A DNA stretch of 27,642 bases from a virus, in IMG/VR virus record IMGVR_UViG_3300022538_000565, positions 1 through 27,642 of that record, one strand, 5' to 3'. The notes under the pieces were generated by a model, which ran no database searches, was not told where the DNA came from, and saw only the letters and a list, made by a program, of their open reading frames with translations. Of this stretch, positions 3,132 through 27,116 are shown one piece after another; position 1 is the first letter of the stretch, and the number at the start of each line of letters is the position of its first letter. The position numbers were made by a program, and so were the translations under genes.

Positions 3132-3146
3132 GAAAGGATGATTAAA

Positions 3147-3317
3147 ATGAAAATGGAAGATAAATACACAAATAAACCTTGCTGGTTATGGAAGGATTCA
3201 GTATCAACAATAAACAGAGCAAGAGAAGACTGTGAACATTGTACTTCAGGAGAATGCCGTCGAAGAATTGCATTGGTTTTAATCTCAAACCGAAGTTTTT
3301 CAACATTCCCAAGATAA
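3147..3317 (+). CDS. Small Cys-rich protein, possibly truncated by an in-frame stop
   Basis: The frame opens at ATG 3147 after AGAAAGGATGATTAAA and encodes 56 residues ending FSTFPR. It contains PCWLW near residue 11 and a cluster, CEHCTSGEC (29-37), that could bind zinc. After the TAA at 3315-3317 the same frame stays open for 47 more codons to 3461, encoding a Gln/Lys-rich coiled-coil-like segment (LDKQQTKLDKQQNEIDEC). The original protein may have been about 104 residues, broken by a nonsense change, or read-through may occur. Its place between the MoxR ATPase and its VWA partner suggests an accessory role. No family is recognised. Confidence 0.55.
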   Translation: MKMEDKYTNKPCWLWKDSVSTINRAREDCEHCTSGECRRRIALVLISNRSFSTFPR

Positions 3318-3462
3318 CTTGATAAACAGCAAACCAAACTTGATAAACAGCAAAACGAAATTGACGAATGCCAAGAGAAAATTAAAACAGCAAGAAAATG
3401 GGCAAAAAAAAATCAAACTCCTATAATAACAGCCAAACAAAAAATCAGAAAGGATGGTTAAA

Positions 3463-4695
3463 ATGAATGCAGAACAGAAAATGCTCAAAGCAAGAACACT
3501 TCTGATTCTCGACCATCCATTCTTTGGATGCTTAGCTTTGAGATTAAAAATGTCAGAAACAAACGAACACCAAACTGCAATTACAGATGGAAAGAATCTA
3601 CTCTACAACCCTGCCTTCGTTGATAAACTTTCCAATCAAGAAACACTTGGATTCGTCGCCCACGAAGTTATGCACGCCGCATTAGGACATACTTGGCGTC
3701 AGGGAAATCGAAAAGCCAAAAAATGGAATATGGCAACGGACTACACAATCAATTCCAATCTACTGGAAGCCGGTTTCACATTACCTAACGGAGCCTTGAT
3801 TGACCACACCAATCTCTATGACAATATGTCTGCTGAGGAAATCTACAAAGCATTACCCGAATCTCAGCAAGAAAAGCAACAACAGCAACACAAACAGCCC
3901 TCACAGCAGAAAACCCAAGAGAACCAGCGACAGAAGCAGCAAAAGCAAACTAAGAAGCAGAAACAACAACAGAAACAACAACAAAAGAAAAAAGAGGAAA
4001 AGGAAATAAAAGATATTGACCCTGGACAATGTGGAGCAGTTGTTCCTGCAAAAGAAGAAACAACAACCAAAGCCAAAGCTGAATGGAAAGCTGCAATCAA
4101 TCAGGCCTTACAAATTTCAAGAGGCAAATTACCAGCATGTTTACAAAGGCAAATAACAGACATATTAGAAACCGTTGTACCCTGGCATATACTATTAAGA
4201 GACTTGGCAGAAAGGACAGCAAGGAACGATTACAGTTGGAGCAGACCGAATCCAAGGTATTTCTCAACAGGGGTAATTCTGCCTTCTCTAATCAGTGAAC
4301 AGCTTCCAGAGATTGCCATCGCAATCGACACCTCCTGCAGTATTAACAAAGAGCAGTTATCAACATTCGCTGCTGAAGCATCCGCAGTATTAGGAGCCTA
4401 TGATACAACAATAAGAGTTATTTACTGTGATGCTAAAATTCAGTCAGAGGAAATCTTTACAAGGATTGATTTACCATTGAAACTCAAATTGAAAGGTGGA
4501 GGTGGCACAAGATTTGCTCCAGTCTTTGAGCACATAGAGAGAAAAGGACATACTCCGTCTTGCCTGATTTACTTCACTGACCTCCGCGGAAGCTTCCCAA
4601 AAGAAGAACCAGAATATCCAACAATGTGGCTTGTACCCAAACCCAGAGATGAGCGTAAGAGAGAAGCACCGTTTGGACAAGTTGTAAATTTTTAA
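3463..4695 (+). CDS. MoxR partner: metallopeptidase-like plus VWA-like protein (DUF2201 type)
   Basis: The start at 3463 follows CAGAAAGGATGGTTAAA; an in-frame ATG at 3454 is part of that ribosome site. The 410-residue protein has an N-terminal zincin-like domain with HEVMHAALGH (67-76) and the conserved W..A.DYTIN segment (89-97). A Gln/Lys-rich low-complexity linker spans about 134-180. The C-terminal VWA-like domain has the MIDAS motif DTSCS (289-293), then GGGGTRF and an acidic loop. This architecture matches the putative metallopeptidase/VWA family commonly adjacent to MoxR ATPases. It probably acts with the ATPase at 2145 in ATP-driven remodeling or proteolysis. The linker length is unusual. 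Confidence 0.85.
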   Translation: MNAEQKMLKARTLLILDHPFFGCLALRLKMSETNEHQTAITDGKNLLYNPAFVDKLSNQETLGFVAHEVMHAALGHTWRQGNRKAKKWNMATDYTINSNLLEAGFTLPNGALIDHTNLYDNMSAEEIYKALPESQQEKQQQQHKQPSQQKTQENQRQKQQKQTKKQKQQQKQQQKKKEEKEIKDIDPGQCGAVVPAKEETTTKAKAEWKAAINQALQISRGKLPACLQRQITDILETVVPWHILLRDLAERTARNDYSWSRPNPRYFSTGVILPSLISEQLPEIAIAIDTSCSINKEQLSTFAAEASAVLGAYDTTIRVIYCDAKIQSEEIFTRIDLPLKLKLKGGGGTRFAPVFEHIERKGHTPSCLIYFTDLRGSFPKEEPEYPTMWLVPKPRDERKREAPFGQVVNF

Positions 4696-9180: not shown

Positions 9181-10528
9181 ACCAGAAAAACGTGACTATC
9201 AAGATAAAGCCCTTAGGAAAATAGAGCACTTCAAGGGACGTGCTCTACTTGCCTACGAGATGCGAACGGGGAAAACCTTTATCGCCTTGCAATGGTTAAA
9301 GAATAATCCAAAGATAGAACCTGCTGTTGTAATCTGTCCTGAAATAGGAAAGCTGTACTGGGAAGAAAAAGCTCTAAGATATTTTGGAATAAGAAGCACA
9401 GTGTTGAATGGAGAAAATCCCCCCAAAAGGAAATTCATACACAAGAATCGACTTTACATACTCAATTGGAAAATACTTCAATATTGGGTTGAGTTTTTAC
9501 AAAGAGCAGGTGTGGTAGCTTCTATATTAGATGAAGTTCATTATATCAAGGAATCCAAAACCTTATGCTATAAAGCAACAAAAAAATTAGTAAGAAAATT
9601 ACCATATCTCCTTGCATTAGGAGGGACGCCACTTAAAAGCAGGCCAAAAGAACTCTTCAATATTCTAAATTTAATAAGACCTGATAAATATCCATCTATC
9701 GTAAAATATCGCTGGAGATACTGTAAACCAAAATACAGACCTTGGGGTTGGAATTATGATGGAGCAGACCATTTAGATGAACTTCATAGAAATATGAATA
9801 CCTGGTGCATGGTTCGGGAACTGAGGAAAGATGTAATGGGTGATTTACCCAAGAACAGACATATTGTACCCATTAATATATCAAGCAGAAGTGAATATGA
9901 TGAAGCTGAAAACAATTTCATTATATGGCTTCGCAGACGTTCTGCCACACGAGCACACAAAGCAAAGAAGGCAGAGCGATTGGTACAGATGGGATACCTG
10001 AGGAGACTTGCAGCATCATTAAAAATGCCAAGTGCCTTAAAATGGATAGACAGATGGTTGGAAAAGAAAGATGGACAGCTTGCCATTTTTGCCATACATA
10101 AAGACATTATCTCTCAGCTTCATACTCACTACAGAGGAATATGTGTTGTAGTTGATGGTACTATTAGAGGTAAAAAACGACATTTAGCCGTTAAGGCTTT
10201 TCAAAACAAGCAATATAGAATATTCATTGGACAATCACAAGCAGCTGGTACAGTCATTGAATTATCAAATGCAAAAGCTGCAATTGGGCTTGAGCTTGAT
10301 TGGACTCCAGGTGGAGTAACCCAATGGGAAGATAGAATATTTGACCCAAACTCAGACAAACCTATGCGTATATATTACCTTGTTGCAAAGAATACCATTG
10401 AACACCACCTTTGCGAAATACTGCAATCAAAGCAAAATATAATATCCAAGATATTAGACGGCAGTAAAAAGAAAAATCAATTAAATGTATTTGACTTATT
10501 AGAAAAAGCATTATTGAAAGGAAAATAA
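9173..10528 (+). CDS. SNF2-type superfamily 2 helicase
   Basis: From the ATG at 9173 the protein has 451 residues. It shows Walker A AYEMRTGKT (27-35), DEVH (120-123), motif III GGTP (150-153) and motifs V/VI around GTVIELSNA and TQWEDRIFDP, the SNF2/SMARCAL1-like translocase set. The start at 9173 is preferred to 9158 or 9110 because the upstream gene ends at 9180; 9158 remains possible. Such phage helicases are thought to act in DNA repair, replication restart or recombination. Near the C-terminus, residues 436-440 read QLNVF, a close match to the bacterial sliding-clamp binding consensus QLxLF. Confidence 0.88.
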   Translation: MTKPEKRDYQDKALRKIEHFKGRALLAYEMRTGKTFIALQWLKNNPKIEPAVVICPEIGKLYWEEKALRYFGIRSTVLNGENPPKRKFIHKNRLYILNWKILQYWVEFLQRAGVVASILDEVHYIKESKTLCYKATKKLVRKLPYLLALGGTPLKSRPKELFNILNLIRPDKYPSIVKYRWRYCKPKYRPWGWNYDGADHLDELHRNMNTWCMVRELRKDVMGDLPKNRHIVPINISSRSEYDEAENNFIIWLRRRSATRAHKAKKAERLVQMGYLRRLAASLKMPSALKWIDRWLEKKDGQLAIFAIHKDIISQLHTHYRGICVVVDGTIRGKKRHLAVKAFQNKQYRIFIGQSQAAGTVIELSNAKAAIGLELDWTPGGVTQWEDRIFDPNSDKPMRIYYLVAKNTIEHHLCEILQSKQNIISKILDGSKKKNQLNVFDLLEKALLKGK

Positions 10529-12118: not shown

Positions 12119-12959
12119 TATTCCTACAGCACCAGAAGGACATCACCATTCACGTCCTGATTGGATAAATCTGGATTGTCCCTACTGCGGACGTGATAGC
12201 CAGAAATGGCATTTAGGATATTCAATAGAAAACAACTTTTTCAACTGTTGGAGGTGCGGAACACATCAACTTATCAATACCTTAATGGAAATAACACATC
12301 TACCATATTACCAAATCAAGAAACTGGTATCTGATTTAGAACCTTCATTCATCAAAAGAGAAAAGCCAACAGGCAAATTAATAATGCCAAGTGGTACTAA
12401 ACATTTATCCTCCGTTCACAAAAAATATCTACATAGCAGAGGATTCAATTGGAGAGAGATACAACGTATTTGGCAAATAAAAGGAATTGGCATAGCCCCC
12501 AGACTACAATGGCGTATATTTATTCCTATTATCTACCATTCACAAGTTGTCAGTTGGACAACACGCTCAATTTCTAAAAGGGAGAATGTAACCAGACATA
12601 TATCGGCCAGTGAGGAAGAGGAATCAATGCCTCATCACGAACTATTGTATGGTGAGGATTATGCACGACATGCAGTAATCGTAACTGAAGGGGTATTTGA
12701 TGTTTGGAGAATCGGAGTAGGTGCTGTTTGCACTTTCAGTACAGGATATTCACAAGAGCAAATAGAACGAATCGTAAAATATCCAATCAGAGCAATATGT
12801 TTCGACAACCAACCAGAGGCTCAGAAACGGGCAAGGAGATTGGTTGACGATTTATCCGTATTCCCAGGCGATACTTTCAATGTAGTATTGGATGCGAAGG
12901 ACGCTGCTGAGGAAAGTGGGGAAAATATAAAAAGATTAAGAAAGGAGATTTTAGAATGA
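12087..12959 (+). CDS. DnaG-type primase (CHC2 zinc finger plus TOPRIM)
   Basis: The 290-residue protein has an N-terminal zinc-binding domain with CPYC (31-34), H42 and CWRC (54-57), and a TOPRIM domain with VIVTEGVFDVW (197-207; Glu201) and ICFDNQPEAQKRAR (237-250; Asp240). It is shorter than cellular DnaG and lacks a DnaB-binding C-terminus, as in many phage primases. The second position of the usual DxD is Gln242 instead of Asp. It synthesises RNA primers on the lagging strand and probably works with the DnaB-like helicase at 16346. Its end overlaps the NADAR gene by 4 bp. Confidence 0.85.
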   Translation: MKFQDILSQLNIPTAPEGHHHSRPDWINLDCPYCGRDSQKWHLGYSIENNFFNCWRCGTHQLINTLMEITHLPYYQIKKLVSDLEPSFIKREKPTGKLIMPSGTKHLSSVHKKYLHSRGFNWREIQRIWQIKGIGIAPRLQWRIFIPIIYHSQVVSWTTRSISKRENVTRHISASEEEESMPHHELLYGEDYARHAVIVTEGVFDVWRIGVGAVCTFSTGYSQEQIERIVKYPIRAICFDNQPEAQKRARRLVDDLSVFPGDTFNVVLDAKDAAEESGENIKRLRKEILE

Positions 12960-13399
12960 ATATGATAAAAGCATTCGTAGACAAATATCGCTTCTTGAGT
13001 AATTTCTTTCCCAGTCCTATTATTTGGAATGGACAAAGATGGGAGACTGCAGAACATTTGTATCAAGCCATGAAAACGGTAAACAAAAATGATAGGGAAC
13101 TGATAAGATTAGCATCCACACCAGGCAAAACCAAAAAATTAGGACAACAAGTTGAACTCCGGTCAGACTGGGAAAATGCCAAACATCGAACAATGAAGGA
13201 AATACTTGAACTAAAATTCAAACAGAATCCTGAATTGGCTCAGAAACTTATCAACACCAAGGGTATGATTTTAGAAGAAGGAAACTTCTGGCATGACAAT
13301 TACTGGGGAATTTGCAGATGCAAAAGGTGCAAACATAAAACAAGGCAAAACCATCTCGGACTATTATTAATGGAATTGAGAAAGGAGATTTCAAAATGA
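12956..13399 (+). CDS. NADAR-domain (YbiA/RibX-like) ADP-ribose-related hydrolase
   Basis: The 147-residue protein spans the full NADAR (DUF1768) fold: FLSNFFPSPI (13-22), WETAEHLYQAMK (29-40), a central KKLG...R.DW segment (about 55-72) and the C-terminal FWHDNYWGICRCKRC, which includes extra Cys residues. NADAR enzymes remove ADP-ribose from guanine in nucleic acids or act on ADP-ribose metabolites, and can neutralise DarT-type toxins. A phage copy may reverse host-inflicted ADP-ribosylation. It starts at an ATGA overlap with primase after AAAGGAGATTTTAGA and overlaps the next gene the same way. Confidence 0.88.
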   Translation: MNMIKAFVDKYRFLSNFFPSPIIWNGQRWETAEHLYQAMKTVNKNDRELIRLASTPGKTKKLGQQVELRSDWENAKHRTMKEILELKFKQNPELAQKLINTKGMILEEGNFWHDNYWGICRCKRCKHKTRQNHLGLLLMELRKEISK

Positions 13400-15713: not shown

Positions 15714-16349
15714 ATGAAAAAAGTGAATAAAAAGTCCAAAATAAGAAGAATTGATATAATAAAGAAATTGCCAAACAAAAAATACAACATTATTTATGCT
15801 GACCCACCTTGGGATTTTAGAGACATGAAAGGAACTTCATTTGGGATAGGAAAACAATATCCTACTCTCAAAGATAAAGAACTTGCAGCATTACCAATTA
15901 AGAACATAACTACCAAAGACTGCATTTTGTTTATGTGGACAACGCACGCTCATATAGAATCAGCCATAAAAATTGCCAAATGTTGGGGATTCAAATATAT
16001 TACTATCGGATTTGAGTGGTTTAAATCCCTTAAGATGGACAAACCTGTATGTATGATAGGTCACTGGACAACAGGTGGGGCTATCGAGCTTTGTTTGTTA
16101 TTTAAGAAAGGTCATCCAAAGAGAATCTGCAAAACAGTACCAAGATTGGTATTCCAACGGCGTACAGAACACAGTCATAAGCCAGAGGAAGTTAGAAAAA
16201 GGATAATTCAGCTTATGGGCGATTTACCACGTATAGAATTATTTGCAAGAGAACATATACAAGGTTGGGATGTTTGGGGAAATGAGGCTCCCGATGAGAT
16301 AACTGGATTTGTTTATAAAAAACATATGAATCGACCAACATTATTATGA
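15714..16349 (+). CDS. MT-A70-type adenine methyltransferase
   Basis: The 211-residue protein contains ADPPWDF (29-35), the catalytic DPPW of the MT-A70 family, and GHWTTGGAIELCLLF plus EHSHKPEEVRKRI further on, as in phage DNA N6-adenine methyltransferases of this type. It probably modifies phage DNA to resist restriction; RNA methylation is possible in the wider family. Residues 207-211 at the extreme C-terminus are RPTLL, similar to the RPTLF end of the radical SAM protein. The start has no clear Shine-Dalgarno sequence. Its stop overlaps the DnaB-like gene by ATGA. Confidence 0.85.
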   Translation: MKKVNKKSKIRRIDIIKKLPNKKYNIIYADPPWDFRDMKGTSFGIGKQYPTLKDKELAALPIKNITTKDCILFMWTTHAHIESAIKIAKCWGFKYITIGFEWFKSLKMDKPVCMIGHWTTGGAIELCLLFKKGHPKRICKTVPRLVFQRRTEHSHKPEEVRKRIIQLMGDLPRIELFAREHIQGWDVWGNEAPDEITGFVYKKHMNRPTLL

Positions 16350-17743
16350 GAATAAATAAGAAAAACAGTGACCAGGAAAGACGGATACTTATTGGGATGA
16401 TTGTTGACCCAATTGTACTTGGTCGGATTGCCTCCAAATGGCAACACCGAATGTTCAAATCCAAATGGGCAAATATAGTAGCTAAATGGTGCCTGAGTTA
16501 TTATAAAAGATATGATAAAGCACCAATGAAACATATTGAAGGTTTGTTTGAAACCTGGTCTGCCAAGACCAAAGATAAAAGTACAATAAATTTAGTAGAT
16601 AAATTCTTGAGTTCATTAAACGAAGAATACGAGGAATTGGGAGAGGAAAGCAATAGTGATTATATAATCGATATTGCTGGTTCTTATTTTAATCAAGTAA
16701 GGATTGAAAGGTTGATTGAATCAGTTGAATCCGATATTACCGAAGGTAGGACAAATGAAGCTCACGGTCGCCTGATTGGATACAATAAAGTTGACATGGG
16801 GGTGGGCGAAGGAATTGATATACTACAAAATGAGGAGGCTATTAGGGAGGCATTTGCGGATAAAGGAGAATCGCTAATTGAATTTCCAGGCGCACTTGGA
16901 CAGTTTTTCAAAGGTGCATTAGAACGTGAAGGCTTTGTTGCCTTTATGGGTAAGAAGGCAGTAGGTAAATCATTTTGGTTGCAAGAAATGGCTTACCAGG
17001 GAATGCTACAACGGAGGAAAGTGGCATTCTTTGAGATTGGTGATATGGGTCAAAACCAGACGATGAGACGATTAATGTCTCGTGTTACCAGACATCCCCG
17101 CAAGGCTTGTGTAATAGAATATCCAACAAAACTTAAGAGGAACAAAAGGAGAAGGAAAATAATTAGAGATTGGGATGAAAAAGAATTCAAGAGAAATTTA
17201 AGTTGGAGGAGAGCAAGAAAGGCTTGCAAGAAATTGATGGAAAAAAGAATAAAAAGCAAGGATTCATATTTCAAACTCTCCTGCCATTTTAATTCAACTC
17301 TTAGTGTCAACGGAATCCAAAGTATTTTACAAGATTGGGAGAGGGAAGAAGGATGGATTCCAGATATGATAGTGATTGATTACGCCGATATCTTGAATAT
17401 GGAGTATCCTGGAATGGAAGGCCGTGATACAATAGACAAGACATGGAAGCAATTACGGGCATTATCTCAAAGACAACATTGTTTGTTAATGACAGCCACC
17501 CAATCTGATGCAGCATCTTATGATAGAGAGACAATGAAAATGAAAAATTTTACGGATGACAGACGTAAGATTGATTCTGTTACCGGAATGATAGGAATAA
17601 ACCAAACGCTGGATGAAAAGAGGAAAGGATTGATGCGGTTGAATTGGATATCACTGCGGGATGATGGATTCTTTGCCTTGGATGTCGTTTATGTCTACGG
17701 ATGCTTGGCTGTGGCAAATCCAGCTGTTAAATCTTGCTTTTAG
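16346..17743 (+). CDS. DnaB-like replicative helicase
   Basis: The 465-residue protein has an N-terminal helical domain and a RecA-like core with Walker A GKKAVGKS (201-208), Walker B MIVIDYADIL and an ATQSD segment, as in DnaB/gp4-type helicases (DnaB_C family). The Walker A is atypical; the usual pattern is GxPGxGKT/S. A basic insertion (KLKRNKRRRKIIRDWDEKEF) interrupts the core between Walker A and B. It unwinds DNA at the fork and should partner with the primase at 12087. The start overlaps the MT-A70 stop. Confidence 0.82.
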   Translation: MRINKKNSDQERRILIGMIVDPIVLGRIASKWQHRMFKSKWANIVAKWCLSYYKRYDKAPMKHIEGLFETWSAKTKDKSTINLVDKFLSSLNEEYEELGEESNSDYIIDIAGSYFNQVRIERLIESVESDITEGRTNEAHGRLIGYNKVDMGVGEGIDILQNEEAIREAFADKGESLIEFPGALGQFFKGALEREGFVAFMGKKAVGKSFWLQEMAYQGMLQRRKVAFFEIGDMGQNQTMRRLMSRVTRHPRKACVIEYPTKLKRNKRRRKIIRDWDEKEFKRNLSWRRARKACKKLMEKRIKSKDSYFKLSCHFNSTLSVNGIQSILQDWEREEGWIPDMIVIDYADILNMEYPGMEGRDTIDKTWKQLRALSQRQHCLLMTATQSDAASYDRETMKMKNFTDDRRKIDSVTGMIGINQTLDEKRKGLMRLNWISLRDDGFFALDVVYVYGCLAVANPAVKSCF

Positions 17744-17753
17744 GAGAATGAAA

Positions 17754-18236
17754 ATGATTAAATTTATTAGTGGTAATATGTTTGACATTCCTGTTGATAT
17801 ACGTATAAATACAGTAAATTGCGTGGGTGTGATGGGAATTGGTGTTGCATTGGCTTTCAAAAGGCGTTTTCCTGAAATGTTCAAATCTTATAGGATATTA
17901 TGTAAAAATAAAATTGTGCAACCCGGTGAGCCGTATTGCTATCTTTATAAAAAGCTCACTATAATAAATTTCCCAACTAAAGACCATTGGCGTAATCCAT
18001 CAGAGTATGAATATATTGAATCGGGATTAGAATGGCTTGCAAAATATCTAAAAGACCGTGGAGCTGTAAAAGTTACTTTACCAGCATTAGGTTGTGGGCA
18101 CGGAGGATTAGATTGGAATAAAGTGAAGTCATTGATAAGAAAACATCTTAGTAGACTTGAGGCTATTATCTATGTTTTTGAGCCATCCAGTTCAAGAAAT
18201 ATGAAAAATATTCACAAAAATCCAAAAAAGATGTAG
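17754..18236 (+). CDS. Macrodomain ADP-ribose hydrolase (DarG/TARG1-like)
   Basis: The ATG at 17754 follows TAGGAGAATGAAA; upstream in-frame starts lie inside the helicase gene. The 160-residue protein is a single macrodomain: ISGNMFDIPVDIRINTVNCV (5-24), GVMGIGVALAFKRRFPEMF (25-43) and LPALGCGHGGLDW, closest in pattern to DarG and TARG1, which remove ADP-ribose from DNA or proteins. The C-terminal DarT-binding region of DarG is absent. It likely reverses ADP-ribosylation of phage DNA by a host DarT toxin. Confidence 0.85.
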   Translation: MIKFISGNMFDIPVDIRINTVNCVGVMGIGVALAFKRRFPEMFKSYRILCKNKIVQPGEPYCYLYKKLTIINFPTKDHWRNPSEYEYIESGLEWLAKYLKDRGAVKVTLPALGCGHGGLDWNKVKSLIRKHLSRLEAIIYVFEPSSSRNMKNIHKNPKKM

Positions 18237-18319
18237 AAGTTACACCAACTTATTCTAATAATAAGAGTAAAGAATGAAATTTGATAACAAGAATCAAAGA
18301 AAAGAAAAGATAACAAAAA

Positions 18320-18682
18320 ATGAAAGATGAAAAACTACAAATGGGTGATGTTGAAACTGAAGCAGTATGTTATTCAGATGGGACAGTAGCACATCGATTA
18401 CGAAAAGATGGGAAACCTGAATTTACTCTTGATGAATTGAAAGAAATTGTCCATCGTCAAAATGTCTACACAGAATTAAAAAATGTTTTAGATAATGTTG
18501 CTGTTCATACATTACATTTGCTTTGGATTCTCGATAGTGAAAAGTATTCGGAATTAAAGGAATATTTTGATGCTGACCCACGAGGACTTACTCAACACAT
18601 TGGTGAAATTCAAAAACATCTTGCTGAGGCTGGTTGTGCAATAGCTCAAACTGGAAAAATGCCAAAGGATGATAAAAAATGA
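18320..18682 (+). CDS. Hypothetical acidic protein
   Basis: The frame encodes 120 residues. No strong ribosome site precedes it (only AAGAAAAGATAAC), so the start is uncertain. The product is acidic and helical, with TLDELKEIVHRQNVYTELKN in the middle and a Lys-rich end that encodes the ribosome site of the next gene. No family is recognised. A short 18-codon frame (18274) precedes it and is not called. Confidence 0.55.
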   Translation: MKDEKLQMGDVETEAVCYSDGTVAHRLRKDGKPEFTLDELKEIVHRQNVYTELKNVLDNVAVHTLHLLWILDSEKYSELKEYFDADPRGLTQHIGEIQKHLAEAGCAIAQTGKMPKDDKK

Positions 18683-18927
18683 AAAAAATTACTGTCAGAG
18701 GATTGATTAAAATGTTAGATAAATGTAAAGACAAAGATGAGGTTACTTGTATAACTAAATCTGTAAATGAAAAAATAAATGAAGGTAAAACAGAATTTGA
18801 CGAAGATTTGGGTGCGGAGATTGATGAGCTTGATATAGATAATTATAAATATAAGATTGTCGGAGTTTCCCAATTTGAGGGAGTCAGTGGAATAGGTGTA
18901 CAAATTATATTTGACGGGGAAGGATGA
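18679..18927 (+). CDS. Small acidic hypothetical protein
   Basis: The 82-residue protein starts at ATGA overlapping the previous stop, after AAAGGATGATAAAAA. It opens MKKITVRGLIKMLDKCKDKDEV and ends with a beta-rich VSGIGVQIIFD. The layout (short helix, 'D..V', hydrophobic end) resembles the next small gene, and both belong to the type of small phage protein with a KKxxELIKxL start. No function is known. Confidence 0.6.
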   Translation: MKKITVRGLIKMLDKCKDKDEVTCITKSVNEKINEGKTEFDEDLGAEIDELDIDNYKYKIVGVSQFEGVSGIGVQIIFDGEG

Positions 18928-18931
18928 TAGA

Positions 18932-19078
18932 ATGAAAAAATCAGAGTTAATAAAAAAACTTAATGCTATGGAAGGTGACCCCGATATATTTATTACAACA
19001 GATGGATGTTTGATACCACCCACAAGATTTGAGGAAGACAAGGAATTGAATGAATTATACATTATAGCAGAAGATTGA
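18932..19078 (+). CDS. Small acidic hypothetical protein (paralog-like)
   Basis: The 48-residue protein starts after GGAAGGATGATAGA. Its KKSELIKKLNAMEGDPDIFI and final ELNELYIIAED are reminiscent of the preceding protein, suggesting an old duplication. The in-frame ATG at 18896 is rejected because it lies in the upstream gene. No function is known. Confidence 0.6.
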   Translation: MKKSELIKKLNAMEGDPDIFITTDGCLIPPTRFEEDKELNELYIIAED

Positions 19079-19098
19079 TAATAATAAGGAGATTGAGA

Positions 19099-19248
19099 AT
19101 GAATCAAATTAGAACAATACAAGAATTTGTTGAGGATATGGTTTCTGATGGTAGAAACTTAAATCAAATCCTCATTGTAGCGATGTGCTGCCGTTGGAAA
19201 AACTTCAAACAGGAAATCGAAAAAGAGTATCGTAGATTAAAAAAGTAA
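19099..19248 (+). CDS. Small hypothetical protein
   Basis: The frame encodes 49 residues after AAGGAGATTGAGA. It is helical with a basic end (NFKQEIEKEYRRLKK) and contains adjacent cysteines (AMCCRW). Good ribosome site and tight spacing support it. No family is recognised. Confidence 0.6.
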   Translation: MNQIRTIQEFVEDMVSDGRNLNQILIVAMCCRWKNFKQEIEKEYRRLKK

Positions 19249-19289
19249 AAACAGAAACAGAAACATTAACATTGGAAAGGAAAATGAAG

Positions 19290-19940
19290 ATGAGTAAAAA
19301 GAAGAAGAAAAAAGGTAAAAAGTTCACAGGGGAAGTAACAAAGACACGGGCTATAAAGATATTTGAAGCATTGAGTTTCAAAACGGCTGGCACGTGGAAT
19401 GTAATCCGATTGCAAAAGAAAATCCAAGACCTGCCTAACCTTATTGAAGGTACCAAATTCACTTCCAAAATGCAAAGAAGAGTGGATATAATTGTAAGGG
19501 CATTGGGGAGAGGAGTGAAAATCACAGTGGTCGATGTAGAAGATGCCACTGCTGATGCCAAACGTAAGCAGGAAATAGAGGATGCTGCAAAACGTGAGGC
19601 AAAGCGAAAATCTGAAAAGAAAACTAAGGACAAAAGTAAGGCAAAAGCTAAGGCTAAGAAAACTGCTAAGAAAAATGCAACAAAAAAGCAGGCAAAGAAA
19701 GCAGTTGTTGCAAAAGAGAAAAAGCCAGGTTTGATGTTGTCGATGTATGAATTCATACAGGCACATCAGCCAATTTCGGCAAGGAAGATTTTATCTATGT
19801 TGAAGCAGAGATTTCCTAATAAGAATCCAGAGAGTATGGAGAGGTGCATCCCCAGATATCCAAAATGTCTGGCTGATTCTCACGGTATTACCGACATTGG
19901 GCAAGATGATAAAGAGTGTTATATCATCACCAAAAAGTAA
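19290..19940 (+). CDS. Histone-H1-like Lys/Ala-rich DNA-binding protein
   Basis: The ATG at 19290 is preferred over 19284 because AAAGG ends 9 bases before it. After a Lys run (SKKKKKKGKKF) come a folded N-terminal domain (about 12-90, ending GVKITVVDVED), a long Lys/Ala linker (AKAKAKKTAKKNATKK) like histone H1 or bacterial Hc1 tails, and a C-terminal winged-helix-like domain (GLMLSMYEFIQAHQPISARK). About 216 residues. It probably compacts or bridges DNA, perhaps phage DNA during replication. Two folded ends joined by an H1-like linker are unusual. Confidence 0.65.
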   Translation: MSKKKKKKGKKFTGEVTKTRAIKIFEALSFKTAGTWNVIRLQKKIQDLPNLIEGTKFTSKMQRRVDIIVRALGRGVKITVVDVEDATADAKRKQEIEDAAKREAKRKSEKKTKDKSKAKAKAKKTAKKNATKKQAKKAVVAKEKKPGLMLSMYEFIQAHQPISARKILSMLKQRFPNKNPESMERCIPRYPKCLADSHGITDIGQDDKECYIITKK

Positions 19941-19951
19941 AATCTTGTTTT

Positions 19952-19988
19952 ATAGGGAGTTTTAGATACTGAAAATCTGGCTCCCTAT
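19952..19988 (+). other. Intergenic hairpin
   Basis: ATAGGGAG (19952-19959) pairs with CTCCCTAT (19981-19988), with AGAT/ATCT inside. It is followed by TTTGG, so it is only a weak terminator candidate. It sits just before the radical SAM gene, whose start lacks a clear ribosome site. Confidence 0.5.
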
Positions 19989-19999
19989 TTGGCATTATA

Positions 20000-20956
20000 A
20001 TGAAAATATTATTGGTTGATATTGATAGTATAATTCCGAATGTGGCTTTACAAAAACTTCAATTTTATTATGAACAAAAAGGAAATAAAGTCATTCAAAT
20101 AAAAGATAGTTCACTTTTACCACTTTTTATAGACAGCTATGATAAAATTTATGTATCTTGCATTTTTACTTATAATAAGCATTTCTGTAAAAAATGGAAA
20201 GGTCTTGCAGAGATTGGAGGTAGTGGTTATAATGTATCAAAGAAATTGCCAATGAAAATAGAAAAAGTCAAACCAAGAAAAAATATAGGCTTTACTACAA
20301 GAGGATGTATAAGAAATTGCTCTTGGTGCATTGTACAACAAAAGGAAGGCAAATGTCGGGTGATTGGTGATATATATGATATTTGGGATGGAAAAGCAAA
20401 AATTATCACACTCTTGGATAATAATATACTTGGATTACCAAGACAATTTTTCAAGATTAGCAAACAAATTAAAAAAGAAAAGCTCAAAGTGGATTTTAAT
20501 TCAGGGTTTGACCATCGGCTTTTAACAGAAAAAATTTGGAAAGAGATAATAAGTCTTTCTCATTGGGCAGATTGGGGGGGTTCAGTAGAAGGTTCATCAT
20601 CAAAAATTAGATTCGCTTTCGATGACATTCTATATAAAAAATCAGTAAAGAGAGCATTAAGAATAATGCAGAAAAATGGATTGAAAGATTGGCAAACAAG
20701 ATGGTATGTTTACGTAGGAATAAAAGATACTACAGAAACTGTTTTGGAAAGGATAAACATTCTGCGTAATGCTGGACAGTTGGTGTTTTTGATGAGAGAT
20801 AGGGATAAGAAAGTACAAGATAATTTGGAGTTTATGAAGATATATATTTGGACTTCTCATATAGCCTTGTTTTCCAAAGAAACTTATGAATCCTCTGCAA
20901 CGAAATCTTATTTTTCTAAACAAGAAATTTATGGTAATAGACCAACTTTATTTTGA
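20000..20956 (+). CDS. Radical SAM protein
   Basis: The 318-residue protein has an N-terminal Rossmann-like segment (KILLVDIDSIIP) typical of B12-binding-type radical SAM proteins and the [4Fe-4S] motif RGCIRNCSWC (Cys103, Cys107, Cys110). The rest fits a partial TIM-barrel. Such enzymes carry out radical chemistry on nucleic acids, cofactors or proteins; the phage substrate is unknown. The last residues (314-318) are RPTLF, almost the same as the MT-A70 end. No ribosome site is visible before the ATG, and a hairpin precedes it. Confidence 0.82.
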   Translation: MKILLVDIDSIIPNVALQKLQFYYEQKGNKVIQIKDSSLLPLFIDSYDKIYVSCIFTYNKHFCKKWKGLAEIGGSGYNVSKKLPMKIEKVKPRKNIGFTTRGCIRNCSWCIVQQKEGKCRVIGDIYDIWDGKAKIITLLDNNILGLPRQFFKISKQIKKEKLKVDFNSGFDHRLLTEKIWKEIISLSHWADWGGSVEGSSSKIRFAFDDILYKKSVKRALRIMQKNGLKDWQTRWYVYVGIKDTTETVLERINILRNAGQLVFLMRDRDKKVQDNLEFMKIYIWTSHIALFSKETYESSATKSYFSKQEIYGNRPTLF

Positions 20957-20978
20957 AACAAATAAGGAGAAATAAAAA

Positions 20979-22013
20979 ATGAGAATCAACCGTGAAGAAT
21001 TATTAAGACAATTAGAAGCAACATTACCAGGCTTATCAACCAGAGAAATTATAGAGCAATCATCCTGCTTTATTTTCAAAGACAAAGCAATTCGTACATA
21101 CAATGATGAAATAGCCTGTACCCAAAAGTCTATCTTGGATATTGAAGGGGCAGTACAAGCTATACCACTTATTTCTATCCTTCGCAAATTACAAGAAGAT
21201 GAATTGGAAATAAATGTCAATGACAGACATATCCAGCTTCTCATCAAAGGCAAACACAAACGGTCAGGTATTCGGATGGAACAAGACATTACACTTCCTA
21301 TTGAAACAGTTGAAAGGCCAAAGAAATGGAAAAAATTACCATCCAATTTTGCTGATGCAGTTTCAATTGTTCAACCTTGTGCTGGTAGTAATGAGGCCCA
21401 GTTTGTTATGACTTGCATACATATTTGTCCTAAATGGATGGAAGCCTGTGATAATCACCAAATGACTCGATTCAGAATAAAGACTGACATATCCGAACCT
21501 GTATTGATAAGAAAAGAATCATTAAAGCATATTGTATCACTGGATATGACAAAATTTAGTGAGACAAAACATTGGATTCACTTTGGAAATTCCACAGGTT
21601 TAATTCTTAGCTGTCGCCATTTCGTAGAGGATTATCCTATGGAAGATATAACAAAAGTTTTGAAAGGATTTGAAGGCAAACCCTTAACTTTGCCAAAAGG
21701 TTTGAAGGAAGCTATTGAGAAAGCGGAAATATTTTCATCTGAAAATGTTGAAGGTAGTGATATTATTATTGACCTTAAACCAACCAAATTCAAAATTACA
21801 GGCAAAGGAGCTTCAGGCTGGTTTACCGAAATCAAGAAATCAAAATATAGAGGTGAACCTTTACAATTTACTATACCAGCAAAATTATTGATAGAATTGG
21901 TAAGGCAGTATAGCAAATGTGAAGTATCATCTACTCGTTTGAAAGTTACTGGTGAGAAATTTGTCTATATAACTGTTCTGGGGATAATAGAGGAAGCTGA
22001 GGAAGAAGATTGA
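20979..22013 (+). CDS. DNA polymerase III beta-type sliding clamp
   Basis: The 344-residue protein starts after ATAAGGAGAAATAAAAA. Its pattern matches a bacterial-type beta clamp: an N-terminal CFIFKDKAIRTYNDEIACT, later repeated clamp-fold units, and the C-terminal FTIPAKLLIELVRQYSKCEV...KVTGEKFVYITVLG. The length (about 366 in cellular DnaN) is close. It would tether the split polymerase at 25018 and other proteins carrying clamp-binding peptides. Residue identity to cellular clamps seems low, so this rests on pattern rather than strong motif. Confidence 0.7.
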   Translation: MRINREELLRQLEATLPGLSTREIIEQSSCFIFKDKAIRTYNDEIACTQKSILDIEGAVQAIPLISILRKLQEDELEINVNDRHIQLLIKGKHKRSGIRMEQDITLPIETVERPKKWKKLPSNFADAVSIVQPCAGSNEAQFVMTCIHICPKWMEACDNHQMTRFRIKTDISEPVLIRKESLKHIVSLDMTKFSETKHWIHFGNSTGLILSCRHFVEDYPMEDITKVLKGFEGKPLTLPKGLKEAIEKAEIFSSENVEGSDIIIDLKPTKFKITGKGASGWFTEIKKSKYRGEPLQFTIPAKLLIELVRQYSKCEVSSTRLKVTGEKFVYITVLGIIEEAEEED

Positions 22014-22237
22014 TTCTACCAATAAACGAAATAATAGGGATAATTGCAACAATCTTTGCTGTAATAGGTGTTATAACAAATAACAGACGTCTTAGAATAT
22101 GTTTTCTATTATGGTTGTTATCAAACGCACTTTCTGGAATTATTCACGTTCACGCTGGAATTTGGAGCCTTTTAATTAGAGATATTATTTTCTTTGTTTT
22201 GGCAATAGAAGGTTGGTTCAAATGGGGACATAAATGA
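22010..22237 (+). CDS. Small multi-TM membrane protein (possible PnuC-like half)
   Basis: The 75-residue protein starts at a TTG that overlaps the clamp stop (ATTGA), with GAGGAAGA upstream; no in-frame ATG is available. It has about three hydrophobic segments (IIGIIATIFAVIGVI; ICFLLWLLSNALSG; LLIRDIIFFVLAIEGWF). The short IEGWFKWG end resembles the W..W pattern of PnuC nicotinamide riboside transporters, but the protein is far too short for a full one. The link to NAD metabolism is only a hint. Confidence 0.5.
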   Translation: MILPINEIIGIIATIFAVIGVITNNRRLRICFLLWLLSNALSGIIHVHAGIWSLLIRDIIFFVLAIEGWFKWGHK

Positions 22238-22317
22238 AATTGCCAATAAATAAAATCGTCTGCGGAGATTGCTTAGAATTTATGAAAGACTGGCCTGATA
22301 ATTGTATAGATTTGGTA
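22234..22317 (+). repeat. Direct repeat L1 (methyltransferase 5' end)
   Basis: The first 84 bp of this methyltransferase gene match 26406-26489 at 74 of 84 positions, without gaps. With L2 (22891-23058) it forms direct repeats about 4.2 kb apart, flanking the UDG-exonuclease, HNH and polymerase genes. Recombination between them could delete that block or swap methyltransferase cores. Confidence 0.8.
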
Positions 22318-23073
22318 GTTACAAGTCCACCTTATGGGGATTTACGAGATTATCGAGGTTTTGTTTTTAATTCTGAAAAAATAGCAAGGGAGTTATTTAG
22401 AATTATTGCAAATGGTGGTGTGGTTGTATGGGTAGTCGGTGATAAAGTTGAGAAAGGTTCTGAAAGCGGAATTAGTTTTCAACAAGCATTGTATTTCAAG
22501 TCGGTTGGTTTTTGTCTTTATGATACGATGATATATCAGAAAGATGGTGCACCATATCCAAGTCAAAGACGTTATATGCAGGAATTTGAATATATGTTTA
22601 TTTTTTCAAAAAATGTACCTAAAACGTTTAATCCTTTGAAAGTAAGAAGCATATGGTATGGTGTTAAAAAGGGTTCGACATATCGACAAAAGGAAGGGGG
22701 AACAAAAAGAAAATCTATAAATATAAACGAATACAAAATAATTGGGAATATTTGGAAAATACCTTGTGGATATATGAAAGGAAGTAAAGATATTATAACC
22801 TTTGAACATCCAGCAAGCTTTCCAGATAAACTTGCTATTGACCATATTGTGAGTTGGAGTAACAAAAATGATATTGTTCTCGACCCAATGTGTGGTTCGG
22901 GAACAACTTGTGTAGCTGCCAAAATGTTAGTTCGTAAATATATTGGCATAGATATATCTAAAAAATACTGTGAGATTTCAAGAAAAAGATTGAAAGGTGT
23001 GAGACCAAGTTTATTTGAAAAGCCAAAGAAGAAGAAAATAAGAGCTTCATTTGGATTGATAAAAAAGAAATGA
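22234..23073 (+). CDS. Beta-class DNA methyltransferase (SPPY type)
   Basis: The 279-residue protein has motif IV TSPPYG (30-35) near the N-terminus and motif I DPMCGSGTT (217-225) near the C-terminus, the beta-class order; SPPY is typical of N4-cytosine methylation but N6-adenine is possible. The middle (residues about 60-200) would hold the target-recognition region. The N- and C-terminal ends are nearly the same as those of the methyltransferase at 26406. Residues 257-261 are RPSLF. It likely protects phage DNA. The start overlaps the previous stop by ATGA. Confidence 0.85.
   Translation: MKLPINKIVCGDCLEFMKDWPDNCIDLVVTSPPYGDLRDYRGFVFNSEKIARELFRIIANGGVVVWVVGDKVEKGSESGISFQQALYFKSVGFCLYDTMIYQKDGAPYPSQRRYMQEFEYMFIFSKNVPKTFNPLKVRSIWYGVKKGSTYRQKEGGTKRKSININEYKIIGNIWKIPCGYMKGSKDIITFEHPASFPDKLAIDHIVSWSNKNDIVLDPMCGSGTTCVAAKMLVRKYIGIDISKKYCEISRKRLKGVRPSLFEKPKKKKIRASFGLIKKK
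22891..23058 (+). repeat. Direct repeat L2 (methyltransferase 3' end)
   Basis: This stretch, from the GSGTT motif to SFGL, matches 26903-27071 closely, including the run encoding RKRLKGVRPSLFEKPKK, with a small indel in the AAG tract. The intervening gene cores do not match. Confidence 0.75.
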
Positions 23074-24296
23074 CTAAAGGATTTTTCACATCTTCGAGAA
23101 TACAAAGCAAACAGAAGATTGGGCAAATAGCTCACTGTGGTCTGTGTGGTTTATATAAGCATTGTAAATCACCAAAAATGCCTCCGACTGGTGAAGGGCA
23201 AATGAAAATATTGATGGTTGCAGAAGCACCAGGAAAATGGGAGGATAAAAAGAACACACAATTAATAGGCAGGATTGGACAAGACTTTAGGAAAAAACAT
23301 TTGAAGCCATTAGGTATTGATTTGGATTTGGATTGTATCAAGACCAATGCCATCATCTGCCGTCCTCTGAATAACAAAAAACCTGACGATAATATGATAG
23401 AGGCCTGCCGTCCTAATCTAATGAAAACCATAAAAGAATGTGACCCCAATGTAATTGTACTTTTAGGCGAAGTTGCCTGTAAATCTTTGTTACCAATATT
23501 ATGGAAAAAGGATATAGGTGCAATTAGTCGGTGGGCAGGTTTTTGCATTCCCTGTACTAATCCAAACGCTTGGATAATCCCAACCTTTCATCCATCATAT
23601 ATAAGTCGAAGAGGAAAGGATAAGATTTTAGATAGGATTTATAAAAAACATTTGAAACTTGCAATTAGAAAATCAAAAAACAAACCTTGGACAGAAATTC
23701 CTGATTACAAAAAACAGATTGAAATTATTACCAGACCATCTCAAGCAGCAAAAATAATTAGAGAATTTACAAAAAAGGGTGGAGCAATAGCCGTTGACTT
23801 TGAATGTAATTGTCTAAAACCAGAAGGAGAAGGAACCGAAATTGTAAGTTGTGCTCTTTGTTGGAGAGGCAAGAGAACGATTTCATATCCCTGGGAAGGT
23901 TCTGCTATCGAAGCTACCGATGAATTACTCAAATCTCCGATGCCTAAGATAGCCAGCAATCTAAATATGGAGAATAGATGGTCACAAGCAAAATTGGGAC
24001 ATCGAATTAGGAATTGGTTATTAGATACTATGTTGGCGGCACACTTTTTGGATAACCGTCCAGGTATTACAGGTATTAAATTTCAATCATTTGTTAATTT
24101 AGGAATGCCCTGCTATAATGAACATATAGAACCATTCTTAAAATCAACAAAAAAGAATAGATTCAATCGGATACAAGATTTGGATTTGGAAAGCCTATTA
24201 GAATATGGGGGTTTTGATTCCTACTCCGAATATTGGGTGGGAATGAAACAGATGAAATTAATAAGGGAAAGAGATGTTTTAGATATTAAAAATTGA
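23070..24296 (+). CDS. UDG-like domain fused to DNA polymerase A-type 3'-5' exonuclease
   Basis: The 408-residue protein starts at an ATGA overlap. The N-terminal domain is a family-4-like uracil-DNA glycosylase: CGLCGLYKHC (23-32), EAPGKW (52-57), VIVLLGEVACKSLL and FHPSYI. The C-terminal domain is the proofreading exonuclease of family A polymerases: AVDFECN (DxE), ASNLNMENRW and YGGFDSYSEYW. It ends exactly where the polymerase domain would begin in an unsplit enzyme, and that domain is encoded separately at 25018. A UDG-like N-terminal domain is also known in some phage polymerases. Confidence 0.8.
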   Translation: MTKGFFTSSRIQSKQKIGQIAHCGLCGLYKHCKSPKMPPTGEGQMKILMVAEAPGKWEDKKNTQLIGRIGQDFRKKHLKPLGIDLDLDCIKTNAIICRPLNNKKPDDNMIEACRPNLMKTIKECDPNVIVLLGEVACKSLLPILWKKDIGAISRWAGFCIPCTNPNAWIIPTFHPSYISRRGKDKILDRIYKKHLKLAIRKSKNKPWTEIPDYKKQIEIITRPSQAAKIIREFTKKGGAIAVDFECNCLKPEGEGTEIVSCALCWRGKRTISYPWEGSAIEATDELLKSPMPKIASNLNMENRWSQAKLGHRIRNWLLDTMLAAHFLDNRPGITGIKFQSFVNLGMPCYNEHIEPFLKSTKKNRFNRIQDLDLESLLEYGGFDSYSEYWVGMKQMKLIRERDVLDIKN

Positions 24297-24313
24297 AGCT
24301 AATAGGAGAAATA

Positions 24314-24514
24314 ATGTTTTGTATGCGATGTCAAAATGATTTATCACAATGTACTTGTCCAGATATGAATGAGAGATTAGAAGCCGCAGCAGCAACAGGA
24401 TATTTTGCTTATAAAAAATGTACTAAATGTGGCAAGCATTACGATTTATGTAAATGCGAAAATCCTCAATGGGCAATACAAGATGGAAACTTAAAGAGAA
24501 AGCAAGAAAATTAA
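24314..24514 (+). CDS. Small zinc-finger-like protein
   Basis: The ATG at 24314 is chosen because AATAGGAGAAATA precedes it. The 66-residue protein has CMRCQNDLSQCTC at the N-terminus and CTKCGKHYDLCKC later, two CxxC..CxC clusters with the same spacing, so a duplicated zinc site. It is the first of three small genes in the gap between the exonuclease and polymerase genes. No family is recognised. Confidence 0.6.
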   Translation: MFCMRCQNDLSQCTCPDMNERLEAAAATGYFAYKKCTKCGKHYDLCKCENPQWAIQDGNLKRKQEN

Positions 24515-24732
24515 GAGAAGCTGCCATAGCCAAAGCCAAAGAAAGAGGGAAAGAGATGTTAGATACTAAGACTGTAGAAGAACGTATAGAGAATGCAAGA
24601 ACAACTCTAAGGCATTTATCCAAGAAGAAAGAAGAAAGAATTACGATATCCAGAAAATTAGTAATGGGATATTGTAATGATTCAATAATGCTTTATGAAG
24701 TGATACTTGTATTGTTAAAAGGGAAAAAATGA
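24469..24732 (+). CDS. Hypothetical helical protein (start uncertain)
   Basis: The frame is open from 24454; likely starts are ATG 24454, 24469 or 24556 (the last has AGAGGGAAAGAG upstream). From 24469 it encodes 87 residues, mainly basic helical (KLKEKARKLREAAIAKAKER). It overlaps the previous gene by 46 bp if the early starts are used, which favours 24556 or a shifted boundary. No family is recognised. Confidence 0.45.
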   Translation: MGNTRWKLKEKARKLREAAIAKAKERGKEMLDTKTVEERIENARTTLRHLSKKKEERITISRKLVMGYCNDSIMLYEVILVLLKGKK

Positions 24733-25046
24733 AAATTCTTAAAGTACAAGGTGTTGATGTTCTCCTTGATGATTGGAATTGGCTTCGTCTATGCAGGTAT
24801 AAATGGAGAATTAAAAATAATGGCAAAGACCATAAAAGCATTGCTCGAACTTATCAAAAGAAGGGTATTCATTACACAGTTTATATGGCCAGGGAAATAA
24901 TGAACACTCCTGAGAATATGGAATGCCATCATAAGAACGGAAATACTTTTAATAACCAAACTGAAAATCTCGAAAATCTTAGCAAGCAAGAACATATGAA
25001 AAAAGATAGGGAAAGAATTGAGACCAATAATCAACCAGGCTTATAG
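24729..25046 (+). CDS. HNH homing-type endonuclease
   Basis: The 105-residue protein starts at ATGA overlap after TAAAAGGGAAAA. It has a small N-terminal domain (KILKVQGVDVLLDDWNWLRL) and the HNH catalytic core with ECHHKNGNTFNNQTENLENL (70-89; His72/His73, Asn75, and the final Asn). Free-standing HNH nucleases often sit in or next to polymerase genes. Its end overlaps the polymerase gene by 29 bp. It probably entered between the exonuclease and polymerase halves, but whether it cleaves the unsplit gene is unknown. Confidence 0.8.
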   Translation: MKILKVQGVDVLLDDWNWLRLCRYKWRIKNNGKDHKSIARTYQKKGIHYTVYMAREIMNTPENMECHHKNGNTFNNQTENLENLSKQEHMKKDRERIETNNQPGL

Positions 25047-26403
25047 ATTATTACACAATGGGTGTATTGCTCTATCCCAGGTCGAAGCAAACGGGATAAG
25101 AATGGATGTTGATTATTTGAAAGAATCCATCCGTAGCACAGGCCTTCAAATCAAAAAACTATCAAGCAAACTTAAAGACCATAAGATATATAAAACTTGG
25201 AGAAGAGAATATGGTTCCAGAACTAATTTAGGAAGTAGGGAACAATTAGGAAAAATACTTTTCGATATAATGAAATATCCTTGCTCATTTCCTCCTACTG
25301 AAACCGGAAGACCAAAGGCAGATGAAGCGGCTTTGAATTCAACAGGTTTGAAATTTGTTGAACGTTATCTAAAAATGGAAAAATTAAAGAAAGCCAGAAG
25401 TACCTATTTGCAAGGCTTCCTACGGGAGACAACAGATGGTTTTCTCCATCCAAACTTCCCTCTTCATTTAGTTCAAACCTATCGTGGAAGCAGCAGCAGT
25501 CCAAACTTCACAAATATAATCAAAAAGAATCCTGAACTTGCAAAATTAATTAGGAGGGCTTTTATAGCTCGTAAAAATCACCAAATTATTGAAACCGATT
25601 TCAAAGGAATAGAAGTTTGCTGTGGTACCTGTTATCATAAAGACCCACAGATGATTAAATATATAAAAAACCCTTCAAAGGATATGCACCGTGATGCAGC
25701 CTGTGATTGTTATATGATAAAAAAGAATCAGGTCTCGTGGGATGCACGAGACACTGGAAAAAATATGTTTATATTCCCCCAGTTTTATGGCGATTGGCAT
25801 AAACATTGTGCCAAAAGTATGTGGAATGCTATTATTGAGAGAAATATAAGAACAACGGATGGATTGAATCTTATCAAACATCTTGAGCGAAAAGGTATTA
25901 CGAGATTAGGTAACTGTGACCCAGATGAAGAACCAGAGGAAGGAACTTTTGAAAGACATATCCAAAAAGTAGAATACATTTTTTGGAATAAAAAATTCAA
26001 AGTTTATAATCAATGGAAGAAGGATTGGTGGGAACAATACCTCGAATTGGGTTGGTTCAAAACATTAACTGGATTTGTAATTGAGGGAGATTTGAATAGG
26101 AAGCAAGTAATAAATTATCCGGTACAAGGTTCAGCCTTCCATTGGTTATTATGGTCACTGATACGAATTCAAAAGATAATGACAAAACACAAAATGAAAT
26201 CTCTTATTGTAGGACAGATTCACGATAGTATAATTGGGGATATTCACAAAAAGGAGAGAAAAGACTATTTAGAAATTGTCAAACAAGTTATTTATGAGGA
26301 TATTAGGAAGCATTGGAAGTGGATTATCGTTCCGCTAACCGTTGAAGTCGGAGTTGCTCCGGTGGGTAGCAGTTGGTATGATACAAAGGAAATTGAAGTA
26401 TAA
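25018..26403 (+). CDS. Family A DNA polymerase, polymerase domain (split gene)
   Basis: The 461-residue protein starts at TTG 25018 with AGGGAAAGAA just upstream; upstream frame is closed by a stop at 24997. Motif A is IETDFKGIEV (191-200, Asp194), motif B has R244, K248 and Y257-G, and motif C is GQIHDSIIG (399-407, Asp403). The canonical QIE and HDE are KGIE and HDS, so finger and metal-site residues vary. There is no exonuclease domain here; it is on the separate protein at 23070. Together they would form one functional polymerase. Confidence 0.85.
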   Translation: MRPIINQAYRLLHNGCIALSQVEANGIRMDVDYLKESIRSTGLQIKKLSSKLKDHKIYKTWRREYGSRTNLGSREQLGKILFDIMKYPCSFPPTETGRPKADEAALNSTGLKFVERYLKMEKLKKARSTYLQGFLRETTDGFLHPNFPLHLVQTYRGSSSSPNFTNIIKKNPELAKLIRRAFIARKNHQIIETDFKGIEVCCGTCYHKDPQMIKYIKNPSKDMHRDAACDCYMIKKNQVSWDARDTGKNMFIFPQFYGDWHKHCAKSMWNAIIERNIRTTDGLNLIKHLERKGITRLGNCDPDEEPEEGTFERHIQKVEYIFWNKKFKVYNQWKKDWWEQYLELGWFKTLTGFVIEGDLNRKQVINYPVQGSAFHWLLWSLIRIQKIMTKHKMKSLIVGQIHDSIIGDIHKKERKDYLEIVKQVIYEDIRKHWKWIIVPLTVEVGVAPVGSSWYDTKEIEV

Positions 26404-26405
26404 GA

Positions 26406-26489
26406 ATGAAACTGCCAGTAAATAAAATCATCTGCGGAGATTGCTTAAAGGTTATGAAGGACTGGCCTGATAACTGTGTGGATTTGGTA
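26406..26489 (+). repeat. Direct repeat R1 (methyltransferase 5' end)
   Basis: Partner of 22234-22317, with 74 of 84 bases matching. See the two-copy analysis under repeat L1. Confidence 0.8.
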
Positions 26490-27116
26490 CTGACTGATCC
26501 ACCTTATGGCGTTGATATGGATTATGATATTTATAAGGATACAGAACAAAACTGGTTTGATATGTTTGTGGATGTTGTGCCCAAAATGAATCGAATAGGG
26601 CGTATGACTATATTGCCATCTTGCCAAATTAACCGTCTGAATTGGATATATAGAACATTGCCTCCAGATTGGCTTATTTGTTGGTACAAAGGTAGTACGG
26701 GATGCTCGAGCTATATTGGGTTCAATGATTGGGAGCCTCTTCTCGTTTACGGCAGAACTAAAAATCAATTATATATGCATGATTTTTTTCAATGCCCACC
26801 AACAGATTTTAGTAATGGACATCCTTGTCCTAAACCTATTGGTTGGGCATTATGGTTAATTGAGCGAGCATCTAACCCTAATGATATTATCATTGACCCT
26901 TTCTGCGGCTCAGGCACTACTTGTGTAGCCGCCAAGATATTAGACCGTAGATATATTGGCATAGACATATCCGAGAAATACTGTGAGATAGCAAGAAAAA
27001 GATTGAAAGGTGTTAGACCAAGTTTGTTTGAAAAACCAAAGAAGAAAATAAAGAGAGCTTCATTTGGATTGTCAATTAAGAAGTGTAAAAGGAGACTGAA
27101 GTATGATTCTAAATAG
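26406..27116 (+). CDS. Beta-class DNA methyltransferase (DPPY type)
   Basis: The 236-residue protein has motif IV TDPPYG (30-35; typical of N6-adenine) and a C-terminal motif I DPFCGSGTT, the same order as the 22234 enzyme. Its first 28 residues and last 60 match that enzyme closely, but the middle is different and shorter. Residues 204-208 are RPSLF. The C-terminus extends past the shared part with KKCKRRLKYDSK. It likely has a different specificity and adds to phage DNA protection. Confidence 0.85.
   Translation: MKLPVNKIICGDCLKVMKDWPDNCVDLVLTDPPYGVDMDYDIYKDTEQNWFDMFVDVVPKMNRIGRMTILPSCQINRLNWIYRTLPPDWLICWYKGSTGCSSYIGFNDWEPLLVYGRTKNQLYMHDFFQCPPTDFSNGHPCPKPIGWALWLIERASNPNDIIIDPFCGSGTTCVAAKILDRRYIGIDISEKYCEIARKRLKGVRPSLFEKPKKKIKRASFGLSIKKCKRRLKYDSK
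26903..27071 (+). repeat. Direct repeat R2 (methyltransferase 3' end)
   Basis: Partner of 22891-23058. The match runs from the GSGTT motif to SFGL, with a small indel in the AAG tract. Confidence 0.75.

Follow-up and report, generated by a model that had tools for sequence, protein, structure and literature searches.

The 27,642-base phage fragment analysed here (IMG/VR record IMGVR_UViG_3300022538_000565, hereafter the window) encodes a sliding clamp together with several unrelated DNA enzymes that carry short, similar peptides at or near one terminus. These peptides, hereafter tags, are likely terminal docking peptides for the phage's own beta-type clamp, and would recruit DNA enzymes during synthesis. 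We favour this reading, drawn from sequence comparisons, because a conserved terminal peptide occurs on unrelated DNA enzymes, is present where the clamp is encoded and is absent where it is not. Gene calls combined with Pfam and PHROG scans identified in the window an SNF2 helicase, a primase, an MT-A70 protein, a DnaB-like helicase, a radical SAM protein (20000-20956, phrog_9298), the clamp itself (20979-22013, 344 residues, phrog_947) and two N4/N6 DNA methyltransferases (methyltransferase 1, 22234-23073, and methyltransferase 2, 26406-27116, both PF01555). They also revealed a split DNA polymerase A (PolA), whose proofreading part is a uracil-DNA glycosylase (UDG) joined to a 3'-5' exonuclease (23070-24296, Pfam scan) and whose polymerase part lies at 25018-26403. 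The genes given coordinates above, as well as the window peptides described below, are on the plus strand.

The first-pass annotation had reported five related peptides and proposed that they share a clamp-binding role. All five are in frame and lie exactly where it had placed them: RPTLF forms the last 5 residues of the 318-residue radical SAM protein (20939-20953), RPTLL the last 5 residues of the MT-A70 protein (16332-16346), RPSLF is found in methyltransferase 1 (23002-23016, residues 257-261 of 279) and in methyltransferase 2 (27015-27029, residues 204-208 of 236), and QLNVF in the SNF2 helicase (10478-10492, residues 457-461 of 472). Two elements had been missed, namely a conserved SFGL in the tails of both methyltransferases (23047-23058 and 27060-27071) and the MTKGFF start of the UDG/exonuclease at 23070, in which the tag KGFF spans 23076-23087. 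For each of the 42 plus-strand open reading frames (ORFs) of the window, we shuffled the C-terminal 30 residues 5,000 times. Two non-homologous proteins end in RP[ST]L[FL], against a shuffle mean of 0.0000, and four carry this motif in their last 45 residues, against 0.003 expected; a looser pattern that admits QLNVF is less striking (6 vs 1.7, P ~0.005). The window peptides are not explained by chance.

Relatives of the radical SAM protein on clamp-bearing contigs have a catalytic domain with 54-77% identity, followed by about 30 unalignable residues and then by the tail. The tails read RPTLF (twice), RPNLF, KPNLF, KLGLF(KGK), NRKKLF, RPDYLF(R) and RKGFF, with RKDYLLPD as the exception. Tails of the LF or FF type are found on 8 of 9 distinct clamp contigs and on none of 24 clamp-less homologs; the latter comprise 18 contigs with no detectable clamp, several of them fragments, and 6 complete annotated phage records, one of which (PV4-TP1) has a very weak clamp-like match. 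The association has a Fisher P of ~5e-7, calculated on 25 negatives (24 on recount) and confounded by ancestry, as the tagged proteins are also mutual nearest relatives, a first point against the docking reading. Within this family RPTLF and KGFF replace each other (locus L191). The case for interchange of tags rests on this family since in a second candidate, a family of small proteins with RPSLF or KGFGL (L111, L283 and L269), the L269 member is not a significant pairwise homolog.

The N-terminal tag of the UDG/exonuclease is equally recurrent. GFF or a close variant precedes the first CxxC in 74 of 77 homologs on clamp contigs, and among cultured clamp phages Mardecavirus MAR10 and SSP002 start with MGFF and Edwardsiella ZHS with VSFF. 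Nothing similar was found at this terminus in ten clamp-less phages, although the herelleviruses among them, being distant, count for less. The same type of tag closes 5'-3' exonucleases (GGFGL in L109, KGFGLT in L111, PRGFF in L118, RKGFW in L133, REGFF in L276 and NGFGI in L283), DpdA-like transglycosylases (KGFGLI, KGFF, KGFGL and others), some methyltransferases (SFGL in the window, see below) and small uncharacterised proteins. As separate observations, a 207-residue protein with no Pfam match (L275:20252-20875) carries the tag at its N-terminus (MSKGFFQEQ), and in two clamp phages the UDG part of the UDG/exonuclease contains an intein (L011:12555-14351 and L124:6239-8596; Intein_splicing in both, with LAGLIDADG in L124).

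For a held-out test, we defined the pattern on the first loci as [KR]GF[FGWLY] within 10 residues of the C-terminus and then applied it to 42 new clamp loci. It matched 10 of 670 genes, against a shuffle mean of 0.61 (maximum 4 in 1,000 shuffles) and an interior expectation of 0.37. Clamp-less loci gave a single match in 1,768 genes, and other regions of clamp contigs, mostly of structural genes, gave none in 768, a result that speaks for specificity without confirming the pattern. A broader pattern, [QRK][LPM]x[LIMV]F within 25 residues of the C-terminus, gave 16 matches vs 4.8 in shuffled sequences on clamp contigs and 19 vs 9.6 on non-clamp contigs. Since the enrichment on clamp contigs is mild, we do not use the general QLxLF motif as a line of evidence.

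A second, independent clade with tags is formed by the Queuovirinae-type phages, where the phrog_947 clamp gene adjoins the gene for DpdA. We read 80 DpdA loci, and all 78 that include the stop have an LF or LY pair at or just before it. The tails are mostly QELF, QQLF, QDLF, RELF or PELF, on variable linkers, and a clamp is present in all 45 Queuovirinae-type DpdA contigs checked. DpdA proteins of further clamp phages also have tails of this kind (EQRLF in Rhizobium phage RHEph05, QNRLF in Streptococcus phage MS1). Megan and Saguaro, the two clamp-less phages compared, have neither clamp nor tag. In the same Queuovirinae-type phages the polymerase starts with GFFW, GLFW or GMFW in 59 of 64 cases, the misses including search-window artefacts; inspection of the termini of the window PolA revealed no tag.

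The proposed partner is, by sequence profile and structure prediction, a genuine DnaN-type (beta-type) clamp with the three-domain beta-clamp fold. It matches phrog_947 with E=5e-23, and its profile matches beta clamps of the PDB with E=1.8e-6 (global hhalign probability 99.7). The AlphaFold2 model built from 44 homologs has a mean predicted local distance difference test (pLDDT) score of 91.4 and a predicted template modelling (TM) score of 0.82; it supersedes a poor initial model from 9 sequences (pLDDT 52). The best Foldseek matches of the model in the PDB are all DnaN clamps, over the full length, with TM scores of 0.78-0.84. A scan of genome contigs with the clamp gave no relatives. Global hhalign with the E. 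coli beta clamp and with Queuovirinae-type clamps points to a C-terminal strand, Y330-I-T-V-L334 (21966-21980), which by position is likely the counterpart of the VVMPM peptide-cleft strand of E. coli beta, although the alignment is uncertain at that end and the match of individual residues correspondingly approximate. The strand has diverged from the bacterial pattern: in these alignments Queuovirinae-type clamps mostly end in the bacterial-like GMR[LGM], and those of the window clade in YVTxLG. The pairing of tag type with clamp C-terminal strand is suggestive, in two clades only.

Not all the window peptides clearly behave as tags. The RPTLL of the MT-A70 protein closes an extension (16290-16346) absent from most homologs, and its membership in a shared set fails on about 80 homologs that end without it, including the orthologs on clamp contigs L005, L007 and L008. 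Two other MT-A70 homologs (L041:942-1520 and L043:2161-2739, on contigs too short to show a clamp) have an unrelated extension ending in QMSLIK, which resembles the clamp peptide of MutS. The QLNVF of the SNF2 helicase is canonical-looking; it is conserved across the family together with its flanking FDxLxxxLL, is a doubtful tag on that account, and may be part of the enzyme fold. In the methyltransferases, the second tail element reads SFGL in the window and EGFGI or EGFGLI elsewhere. Both elements are found on one protein of the nearest relative, 1,098 residues long and with an N6_N4 methyltransferase domain (L011:1150-4446), which has TPNLF and ends in RESFGLI.

The published consensus for peptides that bind the bacterial beta clamp is Q-phi-x-[L/M]-[F/L], revised from QL[S/D]LF (PMC13254535). 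RPTLF, RPSLF and KGFF lack the Q, and only QLNVF comes near; the QELF of Queuovirinae-type DpdA keeps the Q but with shorter spacing. The suggestion that RP replaces QL to suit a divergent clamp describes the subclade of the window only: in the wider clade [KR]GF[FGW] is the prevailing form, and Queuovirinae-type DpdA retains Q.

Taken together, the tag system is real and probably serves clamp docking. As expected of docking motifs, a short motif at a flexible terminus is conserved and the linker is not, in the radical SAM, UDG/exonuclease and DpdA families alike. In none of these families do the clamp-less homologs compared keep the tail (0/24, 0/10 and 0/2, respectively). Retention of the tail without a clamp was what the first-pass annotation had named as refuting its proposal, and this check thus speaks for docking. 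The shared tag first proposed thus stands in its terminal position, in its occurrence on non-homologous enzymes and in its tracking of the phage clamp; it does not extend to the MT-A70 protein, where it is unreplicated, nor with any assurance to the SNF2 helicase, where it is possibly structural. We infer that the peptides bind the phage clamp, presumably in its peptide cleft, and that the clamp, once loaded by the phage clamp loader (whose gene relatives have downstream of the clamp gene, beyond the extent of the window), would become a moving tool belt. The proofreading subunit, through its N-terminal KGFF, and the flap nuclease, through a C-terminal KGFF or KGFGL, would be recruited for synthesis. 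DpdA, the N4/N6 methyltransferases and probably the radical SAM enzyme would be recruited as well, and new phage DNA would be modified while it is made. The motif differs by clade (RPxLF and [KR]GF[FGW] here, QELF and GFFW or GLFW in Queuovirinae-type phages), alongside the differences in the clamp C-terminal strand. Somewhat less firmly than docking itself, we hold it fairly probable that a phage tag code routes hypermodification enzymes (DpdA, methyltransferases, radical SAM) to the clamp for co-replicative modification, and that this code diverged with the clamp from the host QL[S/D]LF to give a private tool belt.

Several further points weigh against docking. The comparison with clamp-less phages is partly confounded with ancestry, includes some fragmentary records and some distant ones (herellevirus polymerases), and for DpdA consists of two genomes only. 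The ten held-out genes amount to about four families (Poisson P ~0.004 by family). The tag is not universal within its families, being found in ~6 of roughly 20 flap nucleases and once in MT-A70, and the methyltransferases bear two different tail elements. Finally, KGFGL is, to our knowledge, no recognised clamp peptide.

The main rival explanation for the tags, to which we give a small but real chance, has as their partner a different component of the phage replisome, one that always accompanies the clamp, such as the clamp loader, an SSB-like (single-stranded DNA-binding) protein, the helicase or PolA. Genes for the clamp loader, SSB-like protein and helicase do co-occur with the clamp, and co-occurrence alone cannot separate the two partners. 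However, polymerases, flap endonucleases, UDG and methyltransferases are long-established partners of sliding clamps elsewhere, and it is this usual set that carries the tags. Furthermore, the tails of DpdA are similar to the beta-clamp consensus, and the tags are basic and aromatic, unlike SSB tails. Among the loci examined, a DNA helicase of Pseudomonas phage BL5 (L307:1494-3269) has an acidic, SSB-like tail, DNDIPF.

It is very unlikely that each tail belongs to the fold of its own enzyme and is kept for stability. The SNF2 peptide, lying within a conserved FDxLxxxLL segment, would fit this explanation, but variable linkers part the tag from the domain in the radical SAM, DpdA, flap endonuclease and UDG/exonuclease families, the tag is found on unrelated folds, and clamp-less homologs end without it. 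We give slightly less credence still to docking on the host beta clamp instead of the phage clamp. At least one phage that lacks the phrog_947 clamp, Dulem virus 39 (L102), does have canonical-looking peptides, an N-terminal QLDIF on a cytosine methyltransferase and QMNIF near the end of a methyltransferase-like protein, and it is possible, from these motifs, that the two dock to the host clamp. In the phages considered here, however, the tags track the phage clamp gene, and [KR]GF[FGW], their main form, is unlike the bacterial consensus. As for chance resemblance plus common ancestry, the small counts in the window and the homology of its two methyltransferases leave it barely credible against the held-out replication, the several non-homologous families and the two phage clades.

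Docking on the phage's own clamp would have clear precedents, and clamp-binding peptides are in themselves well known; what may be new are the motif variants and the clients, namely DpdA, phage methyltransferases and a radical SAM enzyme. Like the bacterial beta-clamp motif, the tags are short, often terminal and LF-ending, lie on polymerases and repair enzymes and have a ring partner with the DnaN fold, whereas the window clade lacks the Q, uses RPxLF or [KR]GF[FGW], and has these additional clients. In archaea and eukaryotes the PIP box serves the clients of PCNA (FEN1, UNG2, DNMT1 and polymerases). The client logic is the same, with a terminal clamp peptide on flap nuclease, UDG, polymerase and DNA methyltransferase, but the partner here has the DnaN fold and QxxhxxFF is absent, making this a functional resemblance and not membership. 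Phage T4 encodes its own clamp, gp45, bound by hydrophobic terminal tails of gp43, gp55 and gp33, its clients being the polymerase and transcription factors; its clamp family and motif are not those found here. The 7-deazaguanine DNA modification of Queuovirinae involves the same DpdA family whose tails end here in QELF-like motifs, and the main text of the study that describes it mentions neither a clamp nor a C-terminal motif (Nat Commun 2019, PMC6884629). Within the library searched, we did not find these motif variants or clamp tags on DpdA, phage methyltransferases or a radical SAM enzyme, which is no proof of absence.

DpdA and DNA methyltransferases work on finished DNA and must beat restriction enzymes to their bases. 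If the docking reading is true, a clamp tag would bring them in immediately after the polymerase and couple DNA modification to the advancing fork. The radical SAM enzyme would then be a candidate for acting on DNA as well. The tag may also serve as a predictor: uncharacterised proteins of clamp phages that end in KGFF, KGFGL or RPSLF would be likely replisome clients.

Other features of the window deserve a brief mention. An HNH homing-type endonuclease gene (24729-25046) lies within the split polymerase locus, between the half that encodes the UDG/exonuclease and the PolA half, and a gene for a NADAR-domain protein (12956-13399) adjoins the primase. Finally, a MoxR-like AAA ATPase and, after it, a DUF2201 metallopeptidase/VWA protein form a paired module at 2145-4695.

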